Assembly (NCBI GenBank): GCA_001717005.1
Contig: MAGS01000086.1
Span: 23,802 to 64,582 of the forward strand
Length of the DNA stretch: 40,781 bases
Source: Candidatus Methanomethylicus mesodigestus
Lineage (GTDB): Archaea > Thermoproteota > Methanomethylicia > Methanomethylicales > Methanomethylicaceae
Direction: 5' to 3'
In this document: in pieces, positions 8,528-36,286 of the stretch
How the letters are laid out: each line of letters starts with the position of its first letter
Numbering within the stretch: the stretch's first letter is position 1
Made by a program: the position numbers and the translations under genes
The notes under the pieces: generated by a model
Told to the model about the DNA's origin: nothing
Databases searched by the model: none
The model's input: the letters and a program-made list of their open reading frames with translations, nothing else

Positions 8528-10315
8528 TTGAAGATACACCTGAAATCCGTCCTCATCATAGGTGCCATGGCGATCATATTGCTGTCGCTGCTAAGCTTCT
8601 CTACCTACTCTATGATCCTCGCCGGATTCTCAGAGATCGAGACCAAAGAGACGCTTGGCAACATAGCCCTCGCGCAGCGTATAATCGGCAACGACCTGAG
8701 CGAACTGGAGACCACTGCCTCCGACTGGGCTTGGTGGGATGACACCTACTCATTCATGGGTACCATGAGCCAGTCCTACATCGACTCGACCCTCGCCGAC
8801 GCGTCCCTCCAGAACATCCATGTAAACGTCATACTATTCATCGATACCAACGGAAGCCTCTGGTTCGGGAAAGCTGTCAACCTCACGACGGGCGACGGAG
8901 TCGAACTCCCTCCCTCCATCGCCGAGAACCTCTCCTACTTTGAGCCGCTCACAGTCTTCAATGGCACCGCGCGCCACAGCGGCGTTCTGATCATAGGCGA
9001 AACCCCTGCGCTCTTCAGCTCGTCCCCCATACTGACCACCGACCGCGAGGGGCCGAGCGCGGGCACGCTCATCATGATCCGATACTTCGACGAGGTGGCG
9101 GCCGCCAGGATCTCTTCGATCCTGAACATGTCCTTCGAGGCGGTCAATTACAACAGTCCTTCTCTATCTCCGGACTTTGCGGAGGCTAAGGCGTCCCTCT
9201 CCCCCTCCGGCACCTTCGTCAAGATCGTGAGCGAGGACACCATATCCGGATTCGCAGAGTTGCGCGACCCATACGGCGACCCCGCAATTCTCTTCAGGAT
9301 GGATATGTCGAGGGCCCTCTCCGCCCTGAAGGGGGCGGCCCTCTTCTACTTCCTGCTCTCAACGTTTGGCATCAGCATAATGGCGGTCCTGATCGCCCTC
9401 CTACTCCTCAGGTGGGCGATCATACTGCGCATAAGCCGATTGTCTTCCGAAGTCAGCCAGATAGCGTCCTCGAAGAGCTTCGAGTCGAGGGTGGCAGAGA
9501 GTGGCGAGGATGAGATATACGCTCTAGCCCACGACATAAACGGGATGCTGCTCGCCCTCCAGAACTCCCAGATCACGCTGAAGGAGTACAGCGAGCACCT
9601 TGAGGACCTCGTGAATGAGAAGACGAAGCAGCTGAAGGAGGCTGAGCGGCTGGCCACAATCGGCGAGACCGCAGCCATGGTGGGCCACGACCTCAAGAGC
9701 CCGCTCCAGGCTGCCGTCAACACGCTATATCTGGCAAAGGAGACGCTCGGGTCGATGAAGCTCGACGAAAAGGATATGCTATCCATGGACGAATACTGCG
9801 ACCGCCTCTCAAAGTATCTCTCTTACATGAACAGGATAGTCTCCGACCTGCAGGACTTCGCCAGGCCGCTGAAGCCGGAATACGCTTGGGTGGACCTGAG
9901 GCGCCTTCTTTCCGACTCGCTAAACACGATCCAGGTCCCGAAGGGCGTGGGCGTGTCGGTGGACGTCGCCGAGGGCTTCCCCAAGGTGAGGGCGGACCCG
10001 CTCCTGATGCAGCGCCTCTCCACCAACTTGGCCAACAACGCGGTCCAGGCTATGCCTGACGGCGGGTCGCTGCGCATCTCCGCCCGCCTCTCCGGAGGGT
10101 CCCTGACCCTGAAGTTCAGCGATACGGGGGTCGGCATATCTGAGGAGAACTTGGGCAAACTCTTCGTACCCCTCTTCACGACCAAGTCGAAGGGCTCGGG
10201 GCTGGGGCTGGCGATCTGCAAGAGGATCGCAGAGGCGCAGGGCGGCACAATAGCCGTCGAGAGCAAAGTCGGCGCCGGGACGGCGTTCACCGTCACGATA
10301 CCGCAGCCGCCGTAG
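8528..10315 (+). CDS. Sensor histidine kinase, CHASE4-HAMP-HisKA-HATPase
   Basis: Two TM segments; extracytoplasmic LETTASDWAWWDDTYSFM (CHASE4); H-box MVGHDLKSPLQA; ATPase motifs NLANNAVQAM, FSDTGVGI, GSGLGLAI. TTG start. Confidence 0.92.
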   Translation: MKIHLKSVLIIGAMAIILLSLLSFSTYSMILAGFSEIETKETLGNIALAQRIIGNDLSELETTASDWAWWDDTYSFMGTMSQSYIDSTLADASLQNIHVNVILFIDTNGSLWFGKAVNLTTGDGVELPPSIAENLSYFEPLTVFNGTARHSGVLIIGETPALFSSSPILTTDREGPSAGTLIMIRYFDEVAAARISSILNMSFEAVNYNSPSLSPDFAEAKASLSPSGTFVKIVSEDTISGFAELRDPYGDPAILFRMDMSRALSALKGAALFYFLLSTFGISIMAVLIALLLLRWAIILRISRLSSEVSQIASSKSFESRVAESGEDEIYALAHDINGMLLALQNSQITLKEYSEHLEDLVNEKTKQLKEAERLATIGETAAMVGHDLKSPLQAAVNTLYLAKETLGSMKLDEKDMLSMDEYCDRLSKYLSYMNRIVSDLQDFARPLKPEYAWVDLRRLLSDSLNTIQVPKGVGVSVDVAEGFPKVRADPLLMQRLSTNLANNAVQAMPDGGSLRISARLSGGSLTLKFSDTGVGISEENLGKLFVPLFTTKSKGSGLGLAICKRIAEAQGGTIAVESKVGAGTAFTVTIPQPP

Positions 10316-10403
10316 CCTCCTACGCGCCCGCCGCGCAGGTGCCGCCTGCGCTTCATTATCGTTTATAACCCCTCGGATCGAAGTAACCTAGAGGGACGTC
10401 TTT

Positions 10404-12293
10404 TTGTCAGACAGGATCAGCGCACACCATTCCATCAAGGAGATGTACGGCAAGATAAAGTCCGACGGGATCACAAACGTCTGGGACCGGTGGGCTGCCC
10501 AGGAGCAGGTTAGGTGCAAGACCTTCTGCGCCAAGGGGCTCAGCTGCCAGTTCTGCAGCAACGGCCCCTGCAGGATAATCCCCGGCAGGCTCGAGCGGGG
10601 CGTCTGCGGCATCGACGGCGACGCGATGCCCATGCGCTACATGCTCCTTAGGAACGCGATGGGGCTGTCGACCTACACCTACCACGCGCGCGAGGTCGCG
10701 AAGACGCTCATAGCGACCGCCGAGGGCAGGACGCCGTTCGAGATCAGGGACGTCCAGAAGCTGAAGGCGCTGGCGGAAAAGGCTGGGATCGCCCCCTCGC
10801 TGCCGGCGAGGGCCATGGCATCAGCGCTCGGGCAGTACATGCTCGCGTCCATAAACGGCGACCCGCGCACCCCGCTGGGGCTGATCCCTTCCATGGCGAC
10901 GCCCGGGCGGGTCGAGGCGTGGGCGAGGCTTGGCATACTGCCCGGCGGGCCCGCGAACGAGCAGGTGGACGCCGTCTCACACTGCCTCACAAGCGTCGAT
11001 GGCGACTACGTCTCGCTCGCCAAGACCGCGCTCAGGATGAGCATCTCGTGCATCTACGGCTCGCTGATACCCCTCGAGTACGGCCAGGACATCCTCTTCG
11101 GCACGCCGCGCCCCCACACGATCAACTTCGACCTCGGGCTTCTCGACCCATCATACGTCAACATCGTCGTCAACGGGCACGAGCCCTTCGTCGGTATGGC
11201 GCTGATAAGGCACTGCAGGCGCGAGGACGTGCAGCAGGATGCCCGCGGCGCAGGCGCCAAGGGTGTCAGGGTCATAGGCTCCATAGAGACCGGGCAGGAG
11301 ATCCTGCAGAGGACCGAGTCCGACGCCGTATACATGGGGATGACCGGCAACTGGCTGACGGTCGAGCCGCTCATAGCCACCGGCGCCGTGGACCTATTCG
11401 CCATGGACATGAACTGCTCGCCGCCATCGCTCGAGGAGTACGCTAAGAAGTACCCCACGACCTTCGTCTCCGTCTCGCCCCTCGTCAACGTCCCCGGCAT
11501 CGGAACCCACGTGGATTACCTGCCGGAGAGGGTCGAGGCGCAGGCAGCCGAGCTCGCGAGGATGGCGGTCTCCAACTTCAGGAGCCGCCGCGGGAGGCAG
11601 CCGCACGTCCCGGCGAGGGTGCAGTCCGCGGTCGTCGGGTTCTCTACCGAGTCCATACTCGAGGCGCTAGGCGGCACCCTCACCCCGCTCCTCGATGCCA
11701 TAAAGGGCGGCGCCATCAAGGGGGTCGTCGGGCTCGTCTCGTGCACTACCCTGGGCAACGGCCCCCAGGACTCCGCGACGATAGCCATGGCAAAGGAGCT
11801 CATAAGGCGGGACATACTCGTCCTCTCGATGGGCTGCGGCAGCGCCGCCCTCCAGGTCGGCGGCCTCTGCACGCTCGAGGCAGGCGAGCTCGCGGGGCCG
11901 GGCCTCAGGGCCATGTGCGGCGCCCTGAAGGTGCCACCCGTCCTCTCATTCGGGACCTGCACCGACACCGGGCGGCTCTCGGTGCTCGTCTCGGCAATCG
12001 CCAACGCGCTCGGGGTCGACGTGCCCGCGCTGCCTGTGGCCGTGACCGCCCCGCAGTACATGGAGCAGAAGGCCACACTCGACGCCGTCTTCGCCCTCGC
12101 TTTCGGTGTCCTGACCCACGTCTCGCCGACCCCGCCGCTCGTGGGAGGGGCGAGGCTGATGAAGCTCCTCTCGCAGGACCTCGAAGGGCTCACAGGCGGC
12201 AGCCTCCTCCTCGAGGAGGACATGGCAAAGGCCGCCGAGGCTATATCCTCCCACATATCGAAGAAGCGGTCCGCCCTGGGGCTCCCGGCATAG
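10404..12293 (+). CDS. CooS/Ni-CODH-fold protein with altered active-site cluster ligands
   Basis: CQFCSNGPCRI...RGVCG B-cluster motif, VNGHEPF, MDMNCSPPS, VSCTTLGN, SMGCGSAALQ, FGTCTDTGR and APQYMEQKA all correspond to CooS motifs. The GICCTG motif reads GSIETG. Confidence 0.88.
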   Translation: MSDRISAHHSIKEMYGKIKSDGITNVWDRWAAQEQVRCKTFCAKGLSCQFCSNGPCRIIPGRLERGVCGIDGDAMPMRYMLLRNAMGLSTYTYHAREVAKTLIATAEGRTPFEIRDVQKLKALAEKAGIAPSLPARAMASALGQYMLASINGDPRTPLGLIPSMATPGRVEAWARLGILPGGPANEQVDAVSHCLTSVDGDYVSLAKTALRMSISCIYGSLIPLEYGQDILFGTPRPHTINFDLGLLDPSYVNIVVNGHEPFVGMALIRHCRREDVQQDARGAGAKGVRVIGSIETGQEILQRTESDAVYMGMTGNWLTVEPLIATGAVDLFAMDMNCSPPSLEEYAKKYPTTFVSVSPLVNVPGIGTHVDYLPERVEAQAAELARMAVSNFRSRRGRQPHVPARVQSAVVGFSTESILEALGGTLTPLLDAIKGGAIKGVVGLVSCTTLGNGPQDSATIAMAKELIRRDILVLSMGCGSAALQVGGLCTLEAGELAGPGLRAMCGALKVPPVLSFGTCTDTGRLSVLVSAIANALGVDVPALPVAVTAPQYMEQKATLDAVFALAFGVLTHVSPTPPLVGGARLMKLLSQDLEGLTGGSLLLEEDMAKAAEAISSHISKKRSALGLPA

Positions 12294-12399: not shown

Positions 12400-13401
12400 A
12401 TGGACCCAAAGGAATCCGCGCGGAACGCACTCCTGTACGTCTTGGATGCGGCGGCCGGCGAGAGGGCAGCCGTGATATGCGACGACGTCAGCCTCGAAGT
12501 CGGCAGGGCCTTCGCCGAGGGTGCCGTAGGCCTCGACCTCTGGTCGCGCCTCTTCGTTCTCAAGACCGGCGGCGAGCCGCGGTCCTCGGTCCCGACCGAG
12601 GTGCGCGAGGCGGTCGCCTCCGGCTCGGCCGACATATACGTGACGATCTTCCGCGAGAGCGAGAGGGAGACGCCCTTCCGCATCAGCATAATCGACCTCA
12701 TAAGCAAGCACCGGAAGTACCGGCTTGGCCACTGCCCGGGCATAACGATGGACATGCTTACCGAGGGCGCTCTGGCCCTCTCCGCCGAGGAGCACAGGGC
12801 GATCTACTCCGACGCGCAGAGGCTGATGTCGCGCCTTGCCGGGGCCGAAAGGGTCAGGGTCACCAGCCCCAACGGGACCGACGCATCGTTCCGGGCGCTC
12901 GGCAGGGACTTCTTCACCGACACCCGGTTCGACTGGAAGACCTACAAGTGGGGGAACCTGCCGACGGGCGAGGTGATGTGCGCCCCCGTGGAGGACTCGC
13001 TCGAGGGCAGGATCGTCTGCGACCTGTCAATAGGCGGCATAGGCCAAATCTCCTCGCCCGTGAAGATCACCGCCAGGGGCGGCCGCGCGGAGCGGTTCGA
13101 GTGCTCCGACGTCGCTGTCCTGAGGCGCGTGGAGGACGCCCTCAGCGTGGACGACGCCGCCAGGCACGTCGGCGAGTTCGCATTCGGGCTGAACAAGAAG
13201 GCGCGGCTCTCGGCGGGCTTCCTTGAGGCCGAGAAGGTCGGCAACACTATCCACTTCGCCTTCGGGCACAACACCGACTTCCCTGGCGGCATGAACGCGT
13301 CCGCCACGCACATGGACTTCCTCGTCTCGAAGCCCACGGTCACGGTCACTACCTCCCCCGGGAGGGAGATCATCGCCATGAGGGACGGGGTCCTGCAGTA
13401 G
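12400..13401 (+). CDS. M29-like (aminopeptidase T-type) metallopeptidase family protein
   Basis: ISIGGIGQISSPVKITARGGR, FAFGHNTDFPGGMNASATHMDFLV resembling M29 aminopeptidase C-terminal motifs. Confidence 0.7.
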   Translation: MDPKESARNALLYVLDAAAGERAAVICDDVSLEVGRAFAEGAVGLDLWSRLFVLKTGGEPRSSVPTEVREAVASGSADIYVTIFRESERETPFRISIIDLISKHRKYRLGHCPGITMDMLTEGALALSAEEHRAIYSDAQRLMSRLAGAERVRVTSPNGTDASFRALGRDFFTDTRFDWKTYKWGNLPTGEVMCAPVEDSLEGRIVCDLSIGGIGQISSPVKITARGGRAERFECSDVAVLRRVEDALSVDDAARHVGEFAFGLNKKARLSAGFLEAEKVGNTIHFAFGHNTDFPGGMNASATHMDFLVSKPTVTVTTSPGREIIAMRDGVLQ

Positions 13402-13403
13402 TG

Positions 13404-14330
13404 CTACTCTCCCGGGCCTGCCTCCCCCCGCCCCGCGCCCCCCTCGAGCCTCCGAGCCATCCCTGCCCACCTGGCATCCAGCTCGTCCTGCAGCCTGGCG
13501 ACCTCCGCGTCCCCGAGCTGGCCGAACCTGCCCTGCATCCTTAGGTAGTCCGCAAGCGGTCTCCTCCTCGACCTGTCCAGCAGCCCCCTCGACGGCCCGG
13601 TGAGTGTGTACCTGCCGCCCTGCCACTCGTAGAGGATCCACGACCCGGTCATGACTGCCATCCTCCCCACATCCACGCCCCTCTCCGTCGGGTACCTCCA
13701 GCCGGGAGGGCAAGGCGTGAGTATGTGGATGTACTTCAGCCCCCTGATCGACATCGCCTTCTTGATCTTGTCCGCAAGGTCCAGCGGGAAGGCCGCGCAC
13801 GCCGTCGCAACGTAAGGCACGCCGTGGGCCGCCATTATCGCCGGGACGTCCTTCTTGGGCTCCGCCTTCCCCCTTATCGCCGTGGTCGTCGCCGCGCCCG
13901 CCGGGGTGGCGCTGCTGCTCTGCGTGCCCGTGTTCATATACGCCTCGTTGTCGTAGCAGACGTAGATGAAGTTCTCGCCCCTCTCGGCCGCGCCGCTGAG
14001 CCCCTGTATCCCTATGTCCGCGGTCCCGCCGTCGCCGGCCCACGCCACTACGCTGGTCTCCCCCCTCCCCGAGAGCTCGAGCGCCGCCGACATGCCGCTG
14101 GCGGTCGCCGCAGCCGCCGCGAAGGCAGTGTTCAGGGTCGGGACCGCCGATGACGACCTCGGATAGTAGCCCTGTATCACCGCGCTGCAGCATGCGGGCA
14201 CCGTCATGACCGTATTCGGCCCCAGCACCTTGAGCGCCATCCTGATGGCAAGCGAGAGCATGCACCCCGGGCACGACGCATTGCCCGGCAGGAAGAGCTC
14301 ATCCTGGCGCAGCTCCTTCAGCGTCACCAC
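13404..14330 (-). CDS. porB: 2-oxoacid (pyruvate):ferredoxin oxidoreductase beta subunit
   Basis: GNASCPGCMLSLAIRMALK, AWAGDGGTADIGIQGLSGAAERGENFIYVCYDNEAYMNTGTQSS (TPP-binding motif). Confidence 0.93.
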   Translation of the reverse strand: MVTLKELRQDELFLPGNASCPGCMLSLAIRMALKVLGPNTVMTVPACCSAVIQGYYPRSSSAVPTLNTAFAAAAATASGMSAALELSGRGETSVVAWAGDGGTADIGIQGLSGAAERGENFIYVCYDNEAYMNTGTQSSSATPAGAATTTAIRGKAEPKKDVPAIMAAHGVPYVATACAAFPLDLADKIKKAMSIRGLKYIHILTPCPPGWRYPTERGVDVGRMAVMTGSWILYEWQGGRYTLTGPSRGLLDRSRRRPLADYLRMQGRFGQLGDAEVARLQDELDARWAGMARRLEGGAGRGEAGPGE

Positions 14331-14331
14331 C

Positions 14332-15528
14332 TCAGGCTCCCCCCTGGCCCCCGGGCGCGCTGGGCGAGCGCCTCAGCCCCCACCACACCTCGTGCCCCTG
14401 GGCGGGATCCCCCGACTCCGCGGCCCTGAGCGCATCCGCCGCCATCCCCATGAAGTCCTCTGGCCTGATGTCCCTGCCGCCGAGCCCCGCGACATACCGC
14501 GCCGCCCTTCCCCCGACCACCGACGCCGCCTCCGTCGCCAGGATGCCCCCCATCCCGAAGGAGTAGTCCCTGTCCACGACCGCGACCGCCTTCGCGCCGC
14601 CAACCGCCCTCACTATCGCCTCGGACGGGAAGGGGCGCACAGCCTTCATCCGCAGGACGCCCGCCCTCGTTCCTTGGTCCCTGAGCGCATCCGCCGCGTC
14701 CTTGGCGTCCCCGCTCGACGCCCCTGCGACCACAATCACCACCTCCGCATCGCCGCACCTGTAATCCTCGACCAGCCCCGCCTGCCTCCTCCCGGATGCC
14801 CTGCCGAACGCGCCCGCCGCCTCCTCTATGACGCGCTTGGAGCGTTCGAGCGCATCCCTTATCGCGCTCCTCACCTCCATCATCGCATCCGGGCCGGTCA
14901 GGTTGCCGTAGGTTGCCGGGCTTCTAGTATCCATCAGAACGGGCAGCATCGACGGGTCCAGCCTCGGCAGGAACGCATCTGCATCCTCCTGCGGCATGAG
15001 GTCCAGCCGCTCCGCCGTATGCGAGAGCGAGAACGCATCTAGGCCGAACATCACCGGCTGCATCACCTCGGCGTCCTCCGCAACCCTGAACGCCATGATC
15101 GAGGTGTCGTATGCCTCCTGCACGCTCTCGCAGATCATCGAGATCCAGCCGGCGTCGCGCTGCGCGAGCTGGTCGGTGTGCTCGTTCCAGATGCTCCACG
15201 GCGGCGCCAGCGTCCTGTTCACGACCGCCATCACCATTGGTATCCTGCCCAGGCCGGTCCAGAAGACCATCTCGTTCATGTAGAGGAGCCCCTGCGAGGA
15301 GGTCGCCGTGAACGCCCTCGCCCCGCACGCCGCCGCCCCGTAGCAGGCGCTGAGCGCGCTGTGCTCGGACTCGACTCTTATGTACCTCCCCCTCATCTCG
15401 CCGCTCGCCATAAACTCCGAGAGCTTCTCCACGATCTGCGTCTGAGGGGTTATCGGGTATGCCGCGACCACCTCTGCCCTCGCCGACCTCACCCCGTACG
15501 CCACCGCGTGGTTTCCTGTCGCTATCAA
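14332..15528 (-). CDS. porA: 2-oxoacid (pyruvate):ferredoxin oxidoreductase alpha subunit
   Basis: GNHAVAYGVRSARAEVVAAYPITPQTQIVEKLSEF, ESEHSALSACYGAAACGARAFTATSSQGL. Confidence 0.94.
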   Translation of the reverse strand: MIATGNHAVAYGVRSARAEVVAAYPITPQTQIVEKLSEFMASGEMRGRYIRVESEHSALSACYGAAACGARAFTATSSQGLLYMNEMVFWTGLGRIPMVMAVVNRTLAPPWSIWNEHTDQLAQRDAGWISMICESVQEAYDTSIMAFRVAEDAEVMQPVMFGLDAFSLSHTAERLDLMPQEDADAFLPRLDPSMLPVLMDTRSPATYGNLTGPDAMMEVRSAIRDALERSKRVIEEAAGAFGRASGRRQAGLVEDYRCGDAEVVIVVAGASSGDAKDAADALRDQGTRAGVLRMKAVRPFPSEAIVRAVGGAKAVAVVDRDYSFGMGGILATEAASVVGGRAARYVAGLGGRDIRPEDFMGMAADALRAAESGDPAQGHEVWWGLRRSPSAPGGQGGA

Positions 15529-15788
15529 TCAGATGCCTCCTCCGCCATCCTTATCGCCTTGACCGGGCAGACCGCCCCGCAGATCCCGCACCCCTTGCAG
15601 TAGTCGTAGTCTATCCGAACGCCGCGCCCCTCGCCCCTCACTACTGACGCATCCGGGCAGTAAAGCCAGCAGATGAGGCACTTCGTGCACCTCCTTTGGT
15701 CTATCTCAGGCCTCCTGAGCCTCCACTGCCCCGTCCTGCCGCTGGCCCCCATGGTGGGGGCAGACGATGCCGCCCCGCAATCCCTCAC
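15525..15788 (-). CDS. porD: 2-oxoacid (pyruvate):ferredoxin oxidoreductase delta subunit (2x[4Fe-4S])
   Basis: CTKCLICWLYCPD and CKGCGICGAVCPVKAI. GTG start overlapping the porG stop (GTGA); an internal ATG at 15752 is an alternative. The longer ORF-track start is rejected. Confidence 0.88.
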   Translation of the reverse strand: MRDCGAASSAPTMGASGRTGQWRLRRPEIDQRRCTKCLICWLYCPDASVVRGEGRGVRIDYDYCKGCGICGAVCPVKAIRMAEEASD

Positions 15789-16327
15789 GGCCCGGCCACC
15801 TCGTATGCGGCGAGCGCCGCCCTGACGTTCCTCTCGCCCAGCTCCCCCCGCCACCTCCTCCTCACGACCTTCTCGAGCGTCGCCCTGCCTACCATGCCCG
15901 ACGCCTTGGAGATCGCCCCGAGCATGGCCGTGTTCACGACCGCCCACCCCGCGACGACGAGCCCGTTCTCGACCGCTATCGCAGTCGCATCGACCGCCGC
16001 ACACCGGACCCCCGGGACATCGGGCGCGGACCTGCCGTTGACCAGCAGGATGCCCCCGCCCTTAATCCCAACGAGCGTCTCCGGGTCGCCGGCCAGCTGC
16101 CGCTCGAAGACCCCCACGATGTCCGGCGAGTAGACCAGCGAGTGCCTCCTGATCGGCGAGTCTGACACCCTGGCCGAGGCGGCGACCGGAGCGCCCCTCC
16201 TCTCTGCGCCGAAGGCAGGGATCGACTGCCCGTATCGCCCCTCCTCAACCGCCGCATCGGCGAGCATCTCCGACGCCGTCACTATCCCCTGCCCTCCCCT
16301 GCCGCGGAGCCTGATCTCCAACAGCAT
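15785..16327 (-). CDS. porG: 2-oxoacid (pyruvate):ferredoxin oxidoreductase gamma subunit
   Basis: MLLEIRLRGRGGQGIVTASEMLADAAVEEGRYGQSIPAFGAERRGAPV. Start moved from ORF-track 16456 to ATG 16327. Confidence 0.92.
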   Translation of the reverse strand: MLLEIRLRGRGGQGIVTASEMLADAAVEEGRYGQSIPAFGAERRGAPVAASARVSDSPIRRHSLVYSPDIVGVFERQLAGDPETLVGIKGGGILLVNGRSAPDVPGVRCAAVDATAIAVENGLVVAGWAVVNTAMLGAISKASGMVGRATLEKVVRRRWRGELGERNVRAALAAYEVAGP

Positions 16328-16579
16328 GAACGAAAAAACCCCCTGCCTTAACCTATGCCGGCGATGTTTTAAAAGGATGCGACGCCGCCCCGGGTATGCC
16401 CCTTCAATGCGCCGCCTGTAGGGGAAAAGCTTATAAGCCATGCCAAGACCCTTCAAAACGGTTTAAAGTACGAAGGCCTCGACAAATAGCGTTAGCCTGC
16501 CATGCTTGCTAATTCTATTGCTTTTGTAGCTTTACTAAAAACAGGCAAAATGAGTTGATGGTTTACGAGATTCGAGGAT

Positions 16580-22176: not shown

Positions 22177-24492
22177 TCAGCCGCCGCCACTGCCCCGCCC
22201 ACCTTCCCCCTCGCTCTTACCATTTTCTTCGCCCTCTTCCTCTTCCTCGCCCCCCTCCTCGCGTTCCCCGTAGGACTCGATGAGCAGCTGCTTGGAGCCC
22301 TTCCCCCTGCTGAGCGCCGACCACTCCTCCTTCGAGACCGTGCCGCCCACCTGCTCCTTTATCGACTTGACCGTCTCCGGCCCTATCTGCGGCAGCTTTC
22401 CAAGGTCCGACGGGGCCGCCCTGCGGAGGTCCTCGATGCTCCTGTATCCGGCGGTGTGGAGCGCCCTCGCCCTCACGCGCCCCACCCCCCTCAGGCTTAT
22501 CAGCGGGAGCAGCTCCTCCTTGACGCCGCTCTCTATCCTTATGAGGAGGCTGCGCAGTGGCGCCGCGGACTCGTGGTAGCCCATCAGCCTCGCCAGCTCG
22601 TGGGCGGCATGCACCAGCCACTTGGCGGACTCGACGTAAGCGTGTATGTCGCCCGAACCGATGTCGAACCTCTCGACGATCTGGTCCTCGGTCGACTCCT
22701 CTACCCAGTCCTTGAGCATCAGCGCCGTCTTGACCTCCGCGAGTACCATCTCGTAGTCGAAGGATCCCCCCTCCGGCAGGTCGTAGAGCAGCAGGTCCGA
22801 GTTGCCCTGCAGGTATGCCATCACCTGCTCCGCCTCCTTCCCCCTCACGTACAGCTTCGGCATGTCCGGGGTGTGGCAGACGAGCGTGAGGTAGCTGATC
22901 GACGGCAGCCCCGAGCGCCTGATCCTGAGCCCGTCCAGCATCACCTTGGCGGACGCCGGGTCTATGTACAGCTCCGAGACCCTCGCGCCGAGCGGCGTCG
23001 GCACCAGCCCCTTCCCCTCCTCCCTGATCATCCCCGACGACTTGAGCGACGAGACCGCCTCGAGCACCGACGAGCGGTAGGAGTTCATGCCGTACTGGTA
23101 TGCGCAGAATGACCCGTCCAGGAACTCGAAGATCCCGTCCAGCGAGTGCGCCAGCCCCATCGCGACCGATGCCAGTATGTGCGACCTGAGCGACGACGCC
23201 ACGCCGAGCTTGGACCAGACCTTCTCCGGCGACGCAAGGACATACTGCTCCATCAGGAACTCGCGCTCCTCCTCGGTCCTGGAGAAGAGTATCGCCTCGC
23301 CGACGGTGTCGTACCTGGGCCTGCCCGCGCGCCCCGCCATCTGCTTCTCCTCGAGTATGGGGATGTTGGTCCGCCCCAGCCCCGCCTCGTAGCGCTTGTA
23401 GTCGTATATCAGGACGCGCCGCGAGGGCAGGTTGACCCCCGCCGCGAGGGTCGGGGTCGACGAGATCACCTTGATGAGCTGAGCCCGGAACGCGTCCTCT
23501 ACTGCCTTCCTCTGCTGGTACGTGAGCCCCGCGTGGTGGAACGCCACCCCATACGAGACCGAGCGGGCGAGCTTCTCCGAGAGGCGGGTCCGCTCCCCCA
23601 TCCCGAGCAGTTTCGAGGAGAGTTCCATCAGCCTCCGCTCCTCGCCTGCCTTCAGGAGCTGCCTCACCGGCTCCTCCAGCCTCTTGGCTATGGACGTCGC
23701 CGAGACCCGGCTGCCCGTGAAGACGAGCATCTGCCCCCCTCCCTTTATCGTGTCGGCGGCGATGTCCGCCACCGGGTCCTTCTCGGCTCCCCTGACCTGC
23801 CTCGGTGGCACCTGCCGCACCTCGCCGTCCTTGAACATGATCGAGCCCTTGCAGAAGACGCCCTCCTTGAGCGAGACCGGGCGCCAGCTGCTCGTCACGA
23901 GCCCTGCCTTCAGCCACGCCGCGATCTCGTCCGCGTTCCTTATGGTGGCGCTCAGCGCCAGGACCTGCGCGCGCGGGTTGATCACCCTCAGCCGGGTGAG
24001 GAGCGACTCCAGCGTGGGCCCCCGGGAGCCGTCCCCGAGGAGGTGGACCTCGTCCGCCACGACAAGCGTGATCGCCTCCACCCACGGCGGCCTGTGCCTG
24101 AAGAGCGAGTCCGCCTTCTCGTTCGTGGCGATTATGAGGTCGTACCTGCCCAGCGAGGGGTCGTTGGAGTCGTAGTCGCCGCTGCTGAGGACGACCTTGA
24201 TGCCCAGCCTGCCGAGCCGGGAGAACTCGTCGCGCTTCTCCGATGCGAGCGCCCTGAGCGGCACGAGGTACAGCACCTTGCCCCTCTGCCCCTGGCCCAT
24301 TATGTGCCTTATCGCGCACAGCTCCGCGACGAGGGTCTTGCCCGAGGCGGTCGGTATCGCGAGGACGAGGCTCTTCCCCTCGAGGACGCCGGCGCTGACG
24401 GCGTCGGCCTGGGGCGGGTACAGCTCGGAGATCCCATCTTCAGCGTAGAGCGCCTTGGCCCTGCCGTCAATCGGGAGCTCCTCCACCCTCAA
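22177..24492 (-). CDS. hel308: Hel308 (Ski2-like) DNA helicase
   Basis: LYPPQADAVSAGVLEGKSLVLAIPTASGKTLVAELC, DEVHLLGD, LSATIRN, QMAGRAGRPRYDTVGEAIL; C-terminal HhH; acidic low-complexity tail. Confidence 0.95.
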   Translation of the reverse strand: MRVEELPIDGRAKALYAEDGISELYPPQADAVSAGVLEGKSLVLAIPTASGKTLVAELCAIRHIMGQGQRGKVLYLVPLRALASEKRDEFSRLGRLGIKVVLSSGDYDSNDPSLGRYDLIIATNEKADSLFRHRPPWVEAITLVVADEVHLLGDGSRGPTLESLLTRLRVINPRAQVLALSATIRNADEIAAWLKAGLVTSSWRPVSLKEGVFCKGSIMFKDGEVRQVPPRQVRGAEKDPVADIAADTIKGGGQMLVFTGSRVSATSIAKRLEEPVRQLLKAGEERRLMELSSKLLGMGERTRLSEKLARSVSYGVAFHHAGLTYQQRKAVEDAFRAQLIKVISSTPTLAAGVNLPSRRVLIYDYKRYEAGLGRTNIPILEEKQMAGRAGRPRYDTVGEAILFSRTEEEREFLMEQYVLASPEKVWSKLGVASSLRSHILASVAMGLAHSLDGIFEFLDGSFCAYQYGMNSYRSSVLEAVSSLKSSGMIREEGKGLVPTPLGARVSELYIDPASAKVMLDGLRIRRSGLPSISYLTLVCHTPDMPKLYVRGKEAEQVMAYLQGNSDLLLYDLPEGGSFDYEMVLAEVKTALMLKDWVEESTEDQIVERFDIGSGDIHAYVESAKWLVHAAHELARLMGYHESAAPLRSLLIRIESGVKEELLPLISLRGVGRVRARALHTAGYRSIEDLRRAAPSDLGKLPQIGPETVKSIKEQVGGTVSKEEWSALSRGKGSKQLLIESYGEREEGGEEEEEGEENGKSEGEGGRGSGGG

Positions 24493-24512
24493 CCACCGCG
24501 CCCCCTAGAGAA

Positions 24513-27500
24513 TCAGACCTTCTTCAGCTCGCCGACCTTCGGCTCGTAGAGGACGCCCTGCTGTATCCAGTCGTTCACGAGCTTCTCGGCGTACTTCTCG
24601 CTCATGCCCTCCGCCGCCGCCCTCTTCAGGAACTGCTCCTTCTTGACCGGCCTCCCCTCGTTCTCGCGCTCCATCTTCATGTAAATCTCGAAGATCTGCT
24701 GCATCTTGTCGCCCTGGGACTTCGAGTGCCCGACCACCACCATGTCGATGTCCGCCCTCCCGGTCTGCGAGTCTATCCCGACCTGCGAGAGGTATGACTT
24801 GAGCAGCTTGGTGGCGGCATTCACGTCCTCCTCGGTGACCTCCTTCTTGAGCGCAAGCTTCGCCCTCGCCTCGGAGAGCCTGATGGCTGCCTCGAGCTGC
24901 CTCATCGTGATGGGGACCGGCGAGTCCGCGCCCTGCCCCTGCGCCCGCGTGTCGAGGAAGTACTTCTCGATCGCCTTCGTCGCGGCATCGCTGAGCGCCG
25001 GGGCGCCGTGCTTCCTGATGTAGTAGATGTACTTCTTCAGGAGCTCCGGCTCGATGAGGGAGGTCTTCGAGGTGCGTATCCCCTGGTGCAGCTTGAGGAT
25101 GTGCTCGGTCATGTTCCTGTCCCTCGTCTCGTCCGGCCTGTCCATGAGCGTGAAGATGAGGTCGAACCTCGAGAGGATGGTTACTGGCAGGTCATTGATG
25201 TTCTCGGCTATCGACCTCTGGGGGACGTACCTGCCGAAGCTCGGGTTCGCAGCAGCGAGGATGCTGCTCCGGGCGTTGAGCTGGACGACGATGCCTGCCT
25301 TGGCTATGCTGATGGTGTTGTGCAGTATCAGGCCGCTGCTGACGAAGTTATGCGTCGGCTCCACGGTCACGTCGTAAACATGATCTGCCTTGTAATCTCC
25401 CTCGTTCGGCATTATTTCCGCTCTTATTATGGTGACTTCATCATAGCTGTTTGCAGCGCCTCTCACATGCGCCTCAGTAGGCACGACGGTGGCGAATGAG
25501 CCCTCTATCAGGGACTCCGCCTCTACAGTCGTAACCCTCCCGCCCCGGATCACATAGACAGGGTGCTCAGGCGTGACCGTTAATTGATGGCCGTCCGAGT
25601 ATGTTATCCTGATGAAATGGTCGGGCGCGCGGTGCCTGCTGATGCGGTCCGCATCGACTGCAAAGACCCTCCTGAAGTCTGTGGTGTTCAGCGCGATGTG
25701 CAAGCCTCTCGCGTCTAGGATCTCGCAGTTTATCCCCTGCACATTCCTCTCGGGATATTCTGCCATAAGCCGGTCTACGAAGTCCCCTATCCTGCTCTTC
25801 TTACCGTCTGCAAACATGATCTCGAACGATGGGTGATAGCTCTGCTGCTCCATTGCCTCATGTATTGCCGACCTGTCCTCCGGTCGCATCTTGTCGATCT
25901 CATCGATGCAGTTATGGGAGAACACTCCATCCGAGAAGTAATTGTGGGGCTCCTCGGGCATCATCAGATCGTAGACGTAACCTTCATGATCAACTTCTTT
26001 AATTCTCACGACCTCGTCAAGGAAATAATCCCTTCTCATGATCTGCTGGAGCGCAATCATATGCGCCTTAGAGGTCGGAGGTAATCTCGAAACCACTTTG
26101 AGAACTTGCGCTACTGATGGCTGCCTCTTCTCATGCATGTAATCATAGACGATCGACCAGACGCCGCGCCGTATGAGGTCTGATCTATCCGCGTCCCCGT
26201 AGACCTCTCTGAACAAAGCCGCTACCGGCCTCTTGGGGAGCTTCTCAGAGATGCCGCTTATATTCCGAGACCTTAAAGATGGGACCTTCTCTCGCATCTT
26301 GACGGAGTATGGTGACAATGCGTCCCTGAGTATGCTGACGTCTCTCCTGCTGCTTACCACGACTATGCCGACGCCTCCATGCACCCCTCTGTAAGCGCCT
26401 AGGCAGTCGAGCCGCCTTAATGCTAAAGTCAAATTAAGGTTGGCGTCGGCGTTTCGACTCGCTGTATAAATCACATTCCATGTTTCATAAGATGCCCTTC
26501 CCTTGGTGGTCTTCTTTCTAGAGATGCACCCGTCCGAATCGGTTACTCCTGCCAAAAACGCCTTGAGCAACGGGTCAGGGAGCGATAGCAATCGGGAGAG
26601 GTTCTCCCCTGCGATATACTCATAGACATATCCAAGAACCCTCCGGCTGGCGCTCCAATCAATGCGTCTGCTTGTTGACATCTTCCCTCTTATCTTGAAC
26701 GCCGTCTCTCTGACGCGCCTAAAGTTGATCATATCAAAACATGAACGCCAACACTTCTCGAACTCGTCAATGAAAGCGGCATTCTTTGGAGACTGCGTTA
26801 TGACAATCGATGCGCGCCTCTTTGAGATCTTAACGCTGCCATCGCCAAAGATGAAACCGCAAATATATGCCAGTTCAGGCGTGATCTTGGGCGTGTTTAT
26901 GGGGGACGCGCTGTAGGTGTGGATCGTCTTCTTCCAATCCCCTTCTACACCCATCCCTCTTGTGATGATCTTTAGCTCGCCTAAAGTCGGCTGCAGCCCG
27001 TAGCGCCTGTACTTGGTTATTCTCTCGACGTGAAGCGCTTCAGCAGCAAGCTTCAGACTGCCATATCTTTCTTCCAGTAACCCCATGATGCTCTTCTTCT
27101 CTTGGGATGTCAATGATACCGTGCATCCGTCAGGCAGAATGTCCCAAAGAAGCACCTCGTCATAATCGGGGGGCGGGAATTTCAATGGAGATGCGATCAT
27201 CTCGCCTATTCTAAACTCCGATGCGGCCTTCCATTCTAGCATATTACCATCGATCAGAAGGTGATCCGGAGTTACCTTGACGCTGAATCCAGACTTGAGC
27301 TTAATGATCAGCAAGCGTCCTGAATACTGCCTCCGCTTAATCCGGGATACCTCGTGTCTGTTTACCTCACAACTGCTCCGGTCAAAGGAATATGTACTTG
27401 AGCGTAGCGTCGCAACCTCGCACCTCTCGTCGCCGGAGATTACTGTTGTAAACGGCAGACGCGTGGCTATCTCGCCAACCCTCTCCACCTTGCCCCCAAC

Positions 27501-29834
27501 TATGACTCTACTGTCCGGGTGGAGGCACGCCACTCCTTTGTCGGCTATGACGAGCGCACCGGCCTCGAGGAAGAACTCGCCGGTGTTCTTGTCCCTGACC
27601 ACGGTCGCCGTGAGGCCTGCCGCAGTCGATCCCTTGCCCGAGGTGTAGACGCCTCTCGGCGCGATCTTGGATACGTACTGCAGGAGCTGCGACTTGGCTG
27701 TGTTGTGCGAGACTATCCCATTCGCAATGAACCTGTGGCCGTCCGGCACCTCTATGTCGAAGACGTCCGCCCGCCCGCCGGTTATTATCTTGACTATCCT
27801 CTCGCTCCTCTGTCTCCGGAAGCGCTTGAACGACTGCGCATCCTTGGCGAGCCCTTCGAGCCTGCGCGCCTTTTCCTTGGACGCGAAGCCGACCCTCCTG
27901 CTGAATTCGATTATGTCGCGCCCGCGCCTTATCGTCAGGGCATTCCCAACGATGCGCGAATGTATCCCGAAGCGGAGGAGGAGGAGCTGCACATCCCTCA
28001 GCAGCTCGATCTCCTCCGCCTTCAACGCCACCGCCCTCCTGCCGCGACCGTTGTTGAAGGCGCACCCGTCTGCAGTATAAAGCCACTTCAGGAATGATGC
28101 GACGACCTCGTTGCCTGACTGGAATATCAGGTCCGGCACCCGCTTCCCCCTCAGGAAGGCGAGGTTCGCTGCGATGTCGACATCGCTGAGGTAAACGCAA
28201 TGGAGGCAGCCTTTCCTTCCCTTCTTGACTGTTTTCGTGACCGGCGGGTCGAGGCCGAAAAGCCCCCTCACCATTGAAAGAAGCCCTTCCAGGATGTCGA
28301 CCTCGGGATCTGCAACCACGAAGCCGAGCCGGCAGCCGTCCTCGCAGACCCATCCACCGCCTAGCATGTAGCCGCAGAACGCGGCAAGCCGAGGGTCCAT
28401 CTTTTCCGGAAGCTTCCTGCGGAACCCGGGCCCCATGTTAGACCTCTCGATGGGCGCGAATCCCGTGCCTACGTATGCCTTCCTCGTGCATTGGAAGCCT
28501 GTTACCACCGCGAGCCTGTCGCCCACCTTGAGCTCGTCCAGCCTCCGCCACTCCCTCCTCTCGAATCCGTCCCTCTTGAAGACCGCCAGCAGCGGGTGGT
28601 TGTATGTCCCCTTGATGCTCTTTCCAGACTCGGTGACGACCTCCATAACCGGTCGGTCCCTGTATATGTGGAACGCTGTGGCGACAGCCCTCCTGCATCC
28701 CTGCCCCGTCTGGACCTGCACCCCGAGCGGCTGGAGGTGTGACGCGCCCATCTGGCCGATCTTGGCGATCCTGCCGTCCCCCAGCACGACCCGCTCGTCG
28801 TAGACGAGGCAGCCAGGGTCTCCCACCAGCAGAAGATTGATGTCGCCCCTGATCTTGATGTCCGAGAAGTTCTTGCTGACCCCCCCGACGAGCTGGTACG
28901 CGACCGCCTCCTTTATCTCGTCGTACCCGTAGATGGACGGGGCTATGGACCCTATGAGCTTGGTGTAGAGCTGGGGGTCCTTCGCAAGCGCCCTTATCTT
29001 CCTCTCGTCGTCCGGCGTTATGTTCAGCTCCTCCGCGCCCCTCTCCGAGACCTCCAGGTAGTTCGCGTCGACCCCTGACGAGAACGTGGCGAGGCGGAAA
29101 CCCTTGGTGGTGAACTCCTGCTTAGCCTGCAGCACCCCGACCATCGAGATCCGGTCGCCTGGCCTCGAGAGGTCCACGATGTCCCCCTGCAGCATCCCCT
29201 CCACGCTCCTGGGGAGCTGCCCCGGAGGGAGCTCCTCCGGCTTCTCCTGGAGGGATATCAGCTGCCAGTCGACGAACGATGACTCCTCCGTGATGAGCCT
29301 GAAGAAGCCCTTCCTGGCGCAGTCCTGGTTCGCGCACTGCGGAGGGGGCATGAGTATGCTCCCCGCCTGGTCGATGAGCATCTTCTCGCCGCAGCGGGGG
29401 CACTGGAACATCGCGCTCTTGAGCAGCTGCTTGACCGCCGACGCCCGGGTTATGATCCCCTCGACCATTATCAGCTTGCCCATGTGGTGGGACTTGAGCG
29501 TCCTGAGCGGCGTGACCTCGTCGAGCTTCCTGAACCTCGCCCTGAAGGACTTCACCTTGCCCGCGTACTGCATGTTCTCGACGCGCATGGCATCCCCGAT
29601 CGCGCTGTTGAGCTTCGGTACGATCTCTATCGGCTTCTCCTTCAGGTCGTGCGCGAGGTCGGGGTCGTAGGATATGAGGTCGTCGAAGTCGATGACCAGC
29701 GAGATCTTGCCCTGCGTCGCCAGCGTCCCTATCGCGTCCCTGTACTTGAACGCCCCCGCCCTGTCCTGGAACGACTTGAGGAAGTTCACGAAGCGCTCGC
29801 GGTAATCGACGACCTCCACTGTGACTTCTGCCAT
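24513..29834 (-). CDS. mcm: MCM replicative helicase containing three in-frame inteins (about 689 aa extein)
   Basis: Extein motifs GDPG/TAKSQLLQYV, GVA/CIDEIDKM, MEQQ/TISIAKAGIVVQLNARSSILAAANP and SRFDLIFTL are contiguous once the inteins are removed. Confidence 0.96.
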   Translation of the reverse strand: MAEVTVEVVDYRERFVNFLKSFQDRAGAFKYRDAIGTLATQGKISLVIDFDDLISYDPDLAHDLKEKPIEIVPKLNSAIGDAMRVENMQYAGKVKSFRARFRKLDEVTPLRTLKSHHMGKLIMVEGIITRASAVKQLLKSAMFQCPRCGEKMLIDQAGSILMPPPQCANQDCARKGFFRLITEESSFVDWQLISLQEKPEELPPGQLPRSVEGMLQGDIVDLSRPGDRISMVGVLQAKQEFTTKGFRLATFSSGVDANYLEVSERGAEELNITPDDERKIRALAKDPQLYTKLIGSIAPSIYGYDEIKEAVAYQLVGGVSKNFSDIKIRGDINLLLVGDPGCLVYDERVVLGDGRIAKIGQMGASHLQPLGVQVQTGQGCRRAVATAFHIYRDRPVMEVVTESGKSIKGTYNHPLLAVFKRDGFERREWRRLDELKVGDRLAVVTGFQCTRKAYVGTGFAPIERSNMGPGFRRKLPEKMDPRLAAFCGYMLGGGWVCEDGCRLGFVVADPEVDILEGLLSMVRGLFGLDPPVTKTVKKGRKGCLHCVYLSDVDIAANLAFLRGKRVPDLIFQSGNEVVASFLKWLYTADGCAFNNGRGRRAVALKAEEIELLRDVQLLLLRFGIHSRIVGNALTIRRGRDIIEFSRRVGFASKEKARRLEGLAKDAQSFKRFRRQRSERIVKIITGGRADVFDIEVPDGHRFIANGIVSHNTAKSQLLQYVSKIAPRGVYTSGKGSTAAGLTATVVRDKNTGEFFLEAGALVIADKGVACLHPDSRVIVGGKVERVGEIATRLPFTTVISGDERCEVATLRSSTYSFDRSSCEVNRHEVSRIKRRQYSGRLLIIKLKSGFSVKVTPDHLLIDGNMLEWKAASEFRIGEMIASPLKFPPPDYDEVLLWDILPDGCTVSLTSQEKKSIMGLLEERYGSLKLAAEALHVERITKYRRYGLQPTLGELKIITRGMGVEGDWKKTIHTYSASPINTPKITPELAYICGFIFGDGSVKISKRRASIVITQSPKNAAFIDEFEKCWRSCFDMINFRRVRETAFKIRGKMSTSRRIDWSASRRVLGYVYEYIAGENLSRLLSLPDPLLKAFLAGVTDSDGCISRKKTTKGRASYETWNVIYTASRNADANLNLTLALRRLDCLGAYRGVHGGVGIVVVSSRRDVSILRDALSPYSVKMREKVPSLRSRNISGISEKLPKRPVAALFREVYGDADRSDLIRRGVWSIVYDYMHEKRQPSVAQVLKVVSRLPPTSKAHMIALQQIMRRDYFLDEVVRIKEVDHEGYVYDLMMPEEPHNYFSDGVFSHNCIDEIDKMRPEDRSAIHEAMEQQSYHPSFEIMFADGKKSRIGDFVDRLMAEYPERNVQGINCEILDARGLHIALNTTDFRRVFAVDADRISRHRAPDHFIRITYSDGHQLTVTPEHPVYVIRGGRVTTVEAESLIEGSFATVVPTEAHVRGAANSYDEVTIIRAEIMPNEGDYKADHVYDVTVEPTHNFVSSGLILHNTISIAKAGIVVQLNARSSILAAANPSFGRYVPQRSIAENINDLPVTILSRFDLIFTLMDRPDETRDRNMTEHILKLHQGIRTSKTSLIEPELLKKYIYYIRKHGAPALSDAATKAIEKYFLDTRAQGQGADSPVPITMRQLEAAIRLSEARAKLALKKEVTEEDVNAATKLLKSYLSQVGIDSQTGRADIDMVVVGHSKSQGDKMQQIFEIYMKMERENEGRPVKKEQFLKRAAAEGMSEKYAEKLVNDWIQQGVLYEPKVGELKKV
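25317..25841 (-). mobile_element. Intein 3, 175-aa mini-intein at MCM MEQQ/T, Ser1 nucleophile
   Basis: Begins SYHPSFEIMFADG after MEQQ, block B TVTPEHPVYV, ends THNFVSSGLILHN/T; no LAGLIDADG motif. Confidence 0.9.
25911..27527 (-). mobile_element. Intein 2 in MCM Walker B (539 aa), LAGLIDADG homing endonuclease present
   Basis: Begins CLHPDSRVIVGG, block B TPDHLL, HEN motifs ICGFIFGDGSV and LAGVTDSDGCI, ends YFSDGVFSHN/C. Confidence 0.93.
27702..28811 (-). mobile_element. Intein 1 in MCM Walker A (370 aa), LAGLIDADG-type, degenerate first motif
   Basis: Begins CLVYDERVVLGDG, block B GTYNHPLLA, ends IANGIVSHN/T. HEN motifs CGYMLGGGWV and LKWLYTADGCAF. Codon boundaries checked (TGC at 28811-28809, AAC at 27704-27702). 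Confidence 0.93.
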
Positions 29835-29838
29835 GGGC

Positions 29839-30444
29839 TCACCTCTCTCTGGTCTTCGGCTCGTCCACGAGGATCCTCTGCCTCCAGCCCTCTATCTCGG
29901 ACCTCAGGGCCGTGTACAGCGCCCTCTCCTCCTGCGAGAGGAGGTCTATAAGGGACTTCGTGGGGTTGCGCTCCATCGACAGCCGCAGTATCTTCTGCAG
30001 CCGGCAGTTGATCATGTCCTGCGCCTTCATCTGGGACTGCCGCTGCTCGCTCAGCAGGGTGTGGGTCGGGCTCTGCTTGATGCCTTCGTCGAGGCTCCTG
30101 AGCAGGGCCCGCACCTTGGGGTAGAAGTGGGGCGGGAGCTGGGATAGGACCTCGTTGCGCTCCTCCTTCCATGACAGCTTGTAGAGGTCCCCCGACCTGA
30201 TGATCTTTGCGTCCTCGTCCTTCAGCTTGGCGACGCCGTTCTCCGCGAGGACATCGGCGACCCACAGGGGGACCTTCGCCTCGCGCCCCTCCTCATACGG
30301 GCCGAACTGGCTGCCGCCCGCCATCGACGCCGGGATGGGCTTCAGGAAGACCACCTGTACCGCGTCCTCCTCGAAGAGGAACTGCGCATGGCCTATACCC
30401 TCTGATGCCCTCCTAGACACGACGACGACCCCCAGTGAACCCAA
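29839..30444 (-). CDS. GINS complex subunit (archaeal Gins51-type)
   Basis: VPLWVADVLAENGVAKL, LPPHFYPKVRALL, and position directly upstream of mcm. Confidence 0.85.
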   Translation of the reverse strand: MGSLGVVVVSRRASEGIGHAQFLFEEDAVQVVFLKPIPASMAGGSQFGPYEEGREAKVPLWVADVLAENGVAKLKDEDAKIIRSGDLYKLSWKEERNEVLSQLPPHFYPKVRALLRSLDEGIKQSPTHTLLSEQRQSQMKAQDMINCRLQKILRLSMERNPTKSLIDLLSQEERALYTALRSEIEGWRQRILVDEPKTRER

Positions 30445-30450
30445 GCAACC

Positions 30451-31233
30451 TTACTCTTGTCCCTTCCTCTTTATAGCCCTTAGCGATCTGTATGCGGGGA
30501 GGGCTATGGCTATCCCTATGAGGACCTGCCCGACGTTGAACGGCACCTCAGCCGCGGCGGCGTATCCGAGTATCAGCTGCTCGTACAGGAAGTAGCCGGT
30601 GACCATCACCGCCCCCGAGATTATGGTACAGATGACCGTCCACCCGACCTCCGGGCCCCTCAGCGCCGCAAGCACCAGTATGAGCGCCCCCGTCGCGATG
30701 CCTGCAGCCGCCCACACATACGCGCTGATTGATAGGAGGAGCGTCACCTGGCCGACCAGCGGCAGCCCGACCGTCAGCTCGGACTCGCCGACGTAGAACG
30801 CCGATCCGACCGCGTAGACCGCGGCAGCTATGCCCACCGCTATCGCCGCTGAGAGTGCCCGCCACGACCTCCGGGAGAGCGACGGCTGCCTCGACGACAG
30901 GAGGCCCAGCAGCCCCCCCTCCGCCCCCTTTACGATCAGGGTCGCGGGCGCGAAGATGTAGTAGCCCAGCACGATGTCTGCGATCATCGAACCGACGCCT
31001 CCCGCGAAGGCGCCTGCCCTTGCACCCGCGAGGAGTGCGACCGCGTAGACCGCGGACTCGCCCACATTGAAGTAGCCGCGGGTAGCCGGGACGAATATCG
31101 TGAATATGAGCGTCGCCACCGTCACAAGGCCCGTATAGAATGCGAAGAGCGGTATGGCGCGCGCGGGTATCAAGTATCTTCCCCAACTTAGGTACGCGCG
31201 CAGGCAAAAAAAACTGCCTATCGGGGCACGCAC
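30451..31233 (-). CDS. ECF transporter S component-like membrane protein
   Basis: FNVGESAVYAVALLAGARAGAFAGGVGSMIADIVLGYYIFAPATLIVKGAEGGLLG. Start uncertain: a downstream TTG (LIPARAIPLF) is plausible. Confidence 0.8.
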   Translation of the reverse strand: MRAPIGSFFCLRAYLSWGRYLIPARAIPLFAFYTGLVTVATLIFTIFVPATRGYFNVGESAVYAVALLAGARAGAFAGGVGSMIADIVLGYYIFAPATLIVKGAEGGLLGLLSSRQPSLSRRSWRALSAAIAVGIAAAVYAVGSAFYVGESELTVGLPLVGQVTLLLSISAYVWAAAGIATGALILVLAALRGPEVGWTVICTIISGAVMVTGYFLYEQLILGYAAAAEVPFNVGQVLIGIAIALPAYRSLRAIKRKGQE

Positions 31234-31264
31234 CCCAACTTAATTAAATATCCCGGCGTTAAGA

Positions 31265-32257: not shown

Positions 32258-32279
32258 TGGCGGCGCCGGGAATGGGCGC

Positions 32280-34599: not shown

Positions 34600-35105
34600 C
34601 TGACGGCGCCCCCGCGCGGGAGCTGCCCCGCCATGAACCGTGCAACCTCGACCGGATCGAGCCTCAGGGCAGCCGCGCCGGGCACCGACAGCAGGCCCGC
34701 GGATGCTACCGCCACGACCTCCCTCAGCCTGCTCGCGAGGGCGAGGTCCCCCTCGCCGCGGGCTATGAATATCTTCCTCAGTTCAGAATCCTTGAACCCC
34801 TCGCATATCACGACGTCCGGCTCGAGGTGCGCCATCGCGCATATCGCCCCCTCGAGCCCCTCCCCCGGCAGGTAAACCGATGCCATGCCGCCCGCATCCA
34901 CGAGGGCCGATGCCATCGCGCCGGATTCCCTGAAGAGGTGCGTGTCCTTCCCGCCGTCCGGAGGGGACGAATGGGCCGTGTGCTTCACGACGCACGCCCT
35001 GATGCCGAGCTTGGCGAGCTCCGCTACGACGCCTGTTATCAGGCGTGTCTTGCCGTAGTCGCTGCCTGGCGCCACTATGGCGAAGACGGGGGCTTTCGGT
35101 GGCAT
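34596..35105 (-). CDS. mobB: Molybdopterin-guanine dinucleotide biosynthesis protein B
   Basis: VFAIVAPGSDYGKTRLITGVVAEL, VKHTAHSSPPDGGKDTHLFRESGA, DVVICEGFKDSELRKI. Confidence 0.9.
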   Translation of the reverse strand: MPPKAPVFAIVAPGSDYGKTRLITGVVAELAKLGIRACVVKHTAHSSPPDGGKDTHLFRESGAMASALVDAGGMASVYLPGEGLEGAICAMAHLEPDVVICEGFKDSELRKIFIARGEGDLALASRLREVVAVASAGLLSVPGAAALRLDPVEVARFMAGQLPRGGAVR

Positions 35106-35243
35106 TAACTCACACTAGCAACAAAATGCGAACATGACTTAAATCTTTGCCCCATGCCCGCATCCCCGCCCCAGCCATGCCTGACGGCGATTCCTCAACA
35201 ACATATATTAGAAAAACAATCTAAGGTGAAAGTGGGCACCCTC

Positions 35244-35714: not shown

Positions 35715-35743
35715 GCCATGCCGCCCGGCGCGCACGGGCTACC

Positions 35744-36265: not shown

Positions 36266-36286
36266 ATCCGTTGCCCCCCTCCCGCC

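Follow-up and report, generated by a model that had tools for sequence, protein, structure and literature searches.

Genome surveys use cooS counts as evidence of CO metabolism, and the locus described here raises the question of what such a gene does in a methanogen when a ligand of the catalytic C-cluster is replaced. The window, by which the whole analyzed stretch of 40,781 nucleotides from Candidatus Methanomethylicus mesodigestus (contig MAGS01000086.1) is meant, contains a CooS-type reading frame. A sequence-only reading had proposed that Glu occupies the Cys295 position of Ni-CODHs in its product, that the other ligands and the EQKA lysine are retained, and that the protein is a non-classical, CODH-V-like one with a cluster resembling that of the hybrid cluster protein (Hcp).

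Reading frame, family and fold

The reading frame is open throughout and is preceded by two putative signals.

10404..12293, + strand: CooS-V-type protein (Ni-CODH clade D, structural group D-1), 629 aa, TTG start; assigned by family model, alignment, tree and fold
10362-10368, + strand: putative TATA-like box (TTTATAA), read from the sequence
10391-10395, + strand: putative ribosome site (GAGGG), 8 nt 5' of the TTG start

The protein matches the family model for the CODH catalytic subunit, TIGR01702, with 743 bits (cut-off 478). With the hydroxylamine reductase (Hcp) model TIGR01703 it reaches 34.2 bits, so far under the cut-off of 360.8 that membership in Hcp by sequence is ruled out. Compared by sequence with the Protein Data Bank, it matches 7b7q best, which is CooS-V of Carboxydothermus hydrogenoformans; the two are 54% identical from end to end. 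Its structure as predicted by AlphaFold with 27 clade members as input (pLDDT 92.4, pTM 0.92) lies at 1.1-1.3 Å from the CooS-V structures (TM 0.98) and at 1.6-2.1 Å from the Ni-CODHs listed; the nearest solved structure is thus CooS-V/CODH-V, which supports the suggested likeness to this protein and its Hcp-like cluster.

The properties of C. hydrogenoformans CooS-V have been published (PMC9311411). This protein was crystallized with a [4Fe-3S-nO] hybrid cluster (Jeoung 2022), contains no Ni, and neither oxidizes CO nor reduces CO2; its NO reduction does not exceed background, and hydroxylamine is reduced slowly, with a kcat of 0.13 s-1. The cluster rearranges with redox state, and a channel opens only when it is reduced; its EPR g values are near 1.98/1.90/1.80. 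The midpoint potentials are -390 and -170 mV, and since the cluster potentials are lower than those of Hcp by about 300 mV, the authors expect CooS-V to have a different physiological role.

Cluster residues

In the segment that reads GICCTGNE or a close variant in canonical CODHs, the window protein reads GSIETGQE, with Ile-Glu at the Cys-Cys pair of Ni-CODHs. The relevant residues are located as follows.

10515..10529, + strand: Cys38-X3-Cys42, the D-cluster pair that bridges the subunits; CooS-V has CX2C here, shorter by one residue (alignment, locus comparison)
10545..10607, + strand: B-cluster cysteines C48, C51, C56 and C68 (alignment to CooS-V)
10674..10676, + strand: Tyr91 at the position of the acid-base His93 (sequence comparison); Tyr at this site has been described as characteristic of group D-1 (PMC6344411)
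11178..11180, + strand: His259, hybrid-cluster site (alignment to CooS-V)
11286..11288, + strand: Glu295 (GAG), replacing the C-cluster ligand Cys295 (alignment to CooS-V, locus comparison)
11412..11417, + strand: Asn337-Cys338, the ligand of cluster Fe1 and its neighbor (alignment to CooS-V)
11742..11744, + strand: Cys447, equivalent to CooS-V Cys449 (alignment to CooS-V)
11835..11837, + strand: Cys478, equivalent to CooS-V Cys480 (alignment to CooS-V)
11958..11960, + strand: Cys519, equivalent to CooS-V Cys521, the persulfide cysteine (alignment to CooS-V)
12063..12071, + strand: Glu554, equivalent to CooS-V Glu556 and Hcp Glu494, and Lys556, in MEQKA (alignment to CooS-V)

Every cluster residue of CooS-V (H259, E295, C338, C447, C478, C519 and E554 as numbered in the window protein) is kept, as are Asn337 and Lys556, and through the CooS-V equivalences the protein has the His, two Glu and four Cys of the Hcp ligand set (PMC9311411, PMC10502027). 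Sequence and fold comparison, either of which might have placed a Cys at position 295, both give Glu, and the residues that the sequence-only reading had named as retained (His259, Cys338, Cys447, Cys478, Cys519 and Lys556) are all found. Its residue list was correct as far as it went, but did not include the other Glu of the hybrid cluster (E554), the bridging cluster at C38/C42, which is type-III-like, or the exchange of His93 for Tyr.

The bridging motif is C-X3-C-X5-C, in which both type III cysteines are present, the published motif being C-X2-C-X5-C. Each of the 12 Methanomethylicia copies in the public set has the C-X3-C form, as do four bacterial members of the Glu295 clade; the remaining 61 loci that cover this motif have C-X2-C, as does CooS-V.

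That the protein is a true Ni-CODH tolerating Glu295 and oxidizing CO might be argued from the fold, from Lys556, from the conservation of five of the six C-cluster ligands, and from the family model, which calls it a CODH. However, the catalytic set of Ni-CODHs (five Cys and one His on the C-cluster) is broken by Glu at position 295; the homologue with Glu295 lacks both Ni and CO activity, and CODH-II carrying C295E is Ni-deficient and has lost CO oxidation (PMC9311411). Moreover, only the Lys of the Ni-CODH acid-base pair, His93 and Lys563, is present, Tyr91 standing for the His, a residue that clade C CODHs also lack (PMC6344411). An active Ni-CODH with altered ligands is rejected in view of the published C295E and CooS-V data together with Tyr91, and a CO-oxidizing function retains next to no probability. 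By analogy with the 54%-identical homologue, from which both the cluster structure and the lack of CO activity are taken, it is very probable that the window protein holds a CooS-V-like cluster and is inactive toward CO.

The Glu295 clade

Among 84,980 species genomes scanned, 80 loci related to the window protein were found. The search patterns spanned the Cys338 and Glu554 regions and excluded Glu295, so the count of this residue is free of search bias. Glu295 is present in 80/80 loci, and the full ligand set in all 78 that cover every ligand; Glu295 in the window protein is therefore not due to chance. The 61 Glu295 rows of an 89-protein tree all fall into one group (SH-aLRT 100) that includes both CooS-V and the window protein, the latter inside a 16-row Methanomethylicia group (SH-aLRT 100). 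Its nearest relative, at 90% identity, is that of Ca. Methanomethylicus oleisabuli. One clade member, the CooS-V gene of Candidatus Zipacnadia (L096, 970-2871), is apparently split by a frame break into two overlapping reading frames.

The window protein belongs to an already described kind, since the chemistry of CooS-V (PMC9311411) and the definition of the type as Ni-CODH structural group D-1 (Inoue 2019, PMC6344411) have both been published. Whether its Glu is original is disputed, Glu295 having been proposed as ancestral in PMC10502027 and as derived in PMC9311411; an Hcp-rooted tree places the root at the Glu295 group without rejecting the alternative (AU p 0.625).

Host genome and CO metabolism

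The genome from which the window comes (1.43 Mb, 88 contigs, 89.6% complete) encodes McrA and is that of a Methanomethylicia methanogen. The window cooS is the sole prismane-family match in this 89.6% complete assembly, in which CdhA and CdhC were looked for and not found; the same family model picks up CdhA-sized and Hcp-sized proteins in other genomes. Across 21 relatives in the family, a CooS-type match is found in 16 (a few being fragments only), no match in four, and Hcp instead in one (G013); CdhC was found neither in the window's own genome nor in the 14 family members checked. A canonical Cys295 CODH fragment on a 4115-base contig (L140) was observed in a Methanosuratincola MAG with CooS-V (G021, 5% contamination), where it may be a contaminant. 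A strict exclusion of Hcp by CooS-V was also considered and is not upheld; it rests on small numbers, G013 being the one family member with Hcp and without CooS-V, and high co-occurrence of clade D with Hcp is reported elsewhere (PMC13056359).

CooS-V has been stated to occur only in genomes with further CODH genes (PMC9311411), a statement about occurrence and not a defining property. It does not hold for the window's own genome or for the 17 of 45 host genomes searched in which no second prismane-family gene was found, and a CooS-V type as the only prismane/CODH-family gene found in its methanogen host is new here. A CO-metabolism call from the window cooS would probably be wrong, because the one cooS found in this methanogen belongs to a type in which the member studied is unable to oxidize CO. 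A genome with CooS-V alone offers no background from other CODHs, and because Methanosuratincola petrocarbonis, for which a cultured isolate, LWZ-6, exists (PMC12244365), encodes a 73%-identical protein (L087, isolate record V4), the function of CooS-V is directly testable.

The same caution touches Methanoperedens BLZ2, reported to oxidize CO through several cooS copies, five of which rise under CO with nitrate (PMC13079737). CooS-V-type loci were seen in Ca. Methanoperedens BLZ2 and relatives (L039, L044, L045 and L275), and at least two of the BLZ2 copies (L039, forward strand, and L045) are of the Glu295 type; judged by the published chemistry, these should not be CO oxidizers. The rise under CO and nitrate fits a nitrogen-oxide link as well as a CO link.

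Gene neighborhoods

The genes that flank cooS in the window are the following.

8528..10315, + strand: sensor histidine kinase, upstream (CHASE4-HAMP-HisKA-HATPase, profile domains)
12400..13401, + strand: M29-peptidase-like protein, directly downstream; the adjacency is kept in 9 of the 13 other Methanomethylicia loci having downstream sequence
13404..16456, - strand: pyruvate:ferredoxin oxidoreductase genes (TPP subunit, PorA, ferredoxin, gamma), convergent, in an order conserved in relatives

The M29-like protein is shorter than the M29 profile, and distant relatives of it adjoin Hcp in two genomes, one of them that of Carboxydothermus islandicus (L152, L251). Farther along the window, a replication island (22177-38201) brings a Hel308-like helicase, MCM, clamp-loader subunits and Cdc6/Orc1 close together; its MCM helicase (24513-29834, - strand, 1773 aa) is interrupted by an intein sequence with intein splicing and LAGLIDADG domains.

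The kinase invites the reading that the protein is a sensor, the cluster of which changes state in response to redox potential or NO and passes the signal to a partner, for instance this adjoining kinase, instead of turning over a substrate. The gene directly upstream of cooS, on the same strand, encodes a histidine kinase in the window, in Ca. M. oleisabuli (at 48 bp) and in several other Methanomethylicia; the very slow turnover of C. hydrogenoformans CooS-V (PMC9311411) and the redox sensing proposed by a 2026 context survey, which ties clade D to regulators (PMC13056359), point the same way. However, the sensor domains of these kinases differ (CHASE4 in the window, MASE3 in L026), the kinase is absent beside most CooS-V copies, in the window the kinase is set apart from cooS by a stem-loop, with T-rich sequence after it, and by the TATA-like box, and the redox-gated channel of the C. 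hydrogenoformans protein suggests a reductase. A sensory role is accordingly considered unlikely.

The por genes bear on another reading, in which a hybrid-cluster reductase acts on a substrate outside nitrogen and oxygen stress, such as some metabolic reduction at about -400 mV. The published midpoint potentials, -390 and -170 mV, would suit ferredoxin-level chemistry, and the Methanomethylicia copies adjoin por genes and not stress genes. Against this, the por genes are convergent and of the housekeeping type, probably no part of the CooS-V system, and neighborhoods elsewhere point to stress, so that this reading is judged improbable, to the same degree as a sensory one.

These other neighborhoods are of two kinds. 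In eight marine Methanosarcinales/ANME loci (L051, L054, L057, L059 and L063-L066), rubrerythrin, a flavodiiron protein, the catalytic chain of ferredoxin:thioredoxin reductase and CooS-V follow one another on the same strand; the flavodiiron protein scores 469.6 bits with the flavorubredoxin model, under its cut-off of 635 because the rubredoxin part is missing or the protein is divergent. In four Methanoperedenaceae loci, an AsnC-type regulator with a conserved Cys-rich tail precedes CooS-V, and in six loci a multiheme (Hao-like) cytochrome follows it; in BLZ2, one Glu295 cooS is paired with a Cys295 cooS, with a Hao-like cytochrome and a NarG-like molybdoenzyme adjoining.

Neighbors were compared with those of 48 Hcp loci and 20 canonical CODH loci, the gene families having been chosen from the CooS-V loci. 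In three genomes of the class to which the window belongs, the same Cys-tailed regulator, possibly a sensor of metal or Fe-S, precedes Hcp by 35-79 bp (the regulator was noted in L039, as ORF L039_p_7191, and in L150, L151 and L234). Genes for a 2[4Fe-4S] ferredoxin-like protein, a cupin, an M29-like protein and an Rrf2 regulator are found beside both CooS-V and Hcp. None of these five families was found beside the 20 canonical CODHs. CooS-V neighbor families adjoin 7/48 Hcp and 0/20 canonical CODH loci (p about 0.10), the loci being related and not independent; a statistical claim of sharing was dropped for this p value and because the families had been picked from CooS-V loci. The sharing with Hcp is therefore suggestive, a lead and not proof, because the counts are small and the loci related. 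C. difficile requires FrdX, a ferredoxin-like partner of Hcp, to resist NO (PMC12915319). Literature searches returned nothing on CooS-V with flavodiiron proteins, nor on cooS in Methanomethylicus; the flavodiiron and Hcp-type neighbors offer a concrete hypothesis where the 2026 survey saw no clear pattern for clade D (PMC13056359).

Proposed function

The best explanation, and a reasonably probable one, is that the window encodes a CooS-V-type homodimer with a hybrid cluster, acting as a low-potential reductase for nitrosative or oxidative stress. Each subunit would carry a [4Fe-3S-nO] cluster on H259, E295, C338, C447, C478, C519 and E554 in place of the [Ni-4Fe-4S] C-cluster, and the protein would neither oxidize CO nor reduce CO2. 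Electrons would enter at a [2Fe-2S] cluster that bridges the subunits, on C38 and C42 of each, and pass through the [4Fe-4S] B-clusters to the hybrid cluster, which would open only in the reduced state. Ferredoxin would drive the reduction of small N-O or O-O oxidants, such as hydroxylamine, NO-derived species or peroxide, and in a methanogen without CODH/ACS this would serve as nitrosative/oxidative-stress defense. Ligands, fold, clade, gene content of the genome and neighborhoods are observed directly; substrate, electron donor and physiological role are what we infer here, and their combination (ferredoxin electrons through the D- and B-clusters, an N-O or O-O oxidant, stress defense) stands at about even odds. 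The main counter-evidence comes from C. hydrogenoformans CooS-V itself, because its slow turnover and undetected NO reduction weaken a reductase role in stress. Its lower cluster potentials also speak against that role, as do the finding that no nitrogen-stress gene adjoins the window's own cooS and the BLZ2 response to CO with nitrate, which a CO link would explain equally well.

In a broader and rather doubtful extension, CooS-V types might form a second line of anaerobic nitrosative/oxidative-stress reductases, sharing regulators and donors with Hcp, working alongside flavodiiron proteins, and standing in for Hcp in Methanomethylicia methanogens without CODH/ACS. If so, many archaeal 'CO dehydrogenase' annotations would be wrong on function, including part of the Methanoperedens cooS set credited with CO oxidation.

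Comparison with known systems

The closest known system is CooS-V (CODH-V) of C. hydrogenoformans (PDB 7B7Q/7B7T/7B95/7B97/7B9A), which has the same length, fold, cluster residues and two-cysteine bridging motif as the window protein, but with CX2C where the latter has CX3C; the hosts also differ, that of the window being a methanogenic archaeon without CODH/ACS in which no other CODH was found. The marks of Ni-CODH structural group D-1 (PMC6344411), namely Glu for the first C-cluster Cys, Tyr for the acid-base His and two D-cluster cysteines before the B-cluster, are all present, whereas the published type III motif, C-X2-C-X5-C, is lengthened to C-X3-C-X5-C.

A Cys295 clade D CooS of Methanoperedens BLZ2 (L039 reverse strand, group D-4-like), at 44% identity, has Tyr91, Asn337, Glu554 and TGQE in common with the window protein, but retains Cys295 and a C-X7-CC bridging motif; from its residues, it is possibly an intermediate between the two cluster types. 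Active Ni-CODHs, including CODH-II of C. hydrogenoformans, match in fold, B-cluster, four of five C-cluster cysteines and the equivalents of His261 and Lys563, and differ in that the window protein has Glu for Cys295, Ile for Cys294, Tyr for His93 and the added Glu554. Hcp of classes I-III likewise has His, two Glu and four Cys at its cluster, and some CooS-V relatives have neighbor gene families in common with it; the window protein differs from Hcp in its CODH fold and bridging cluster.
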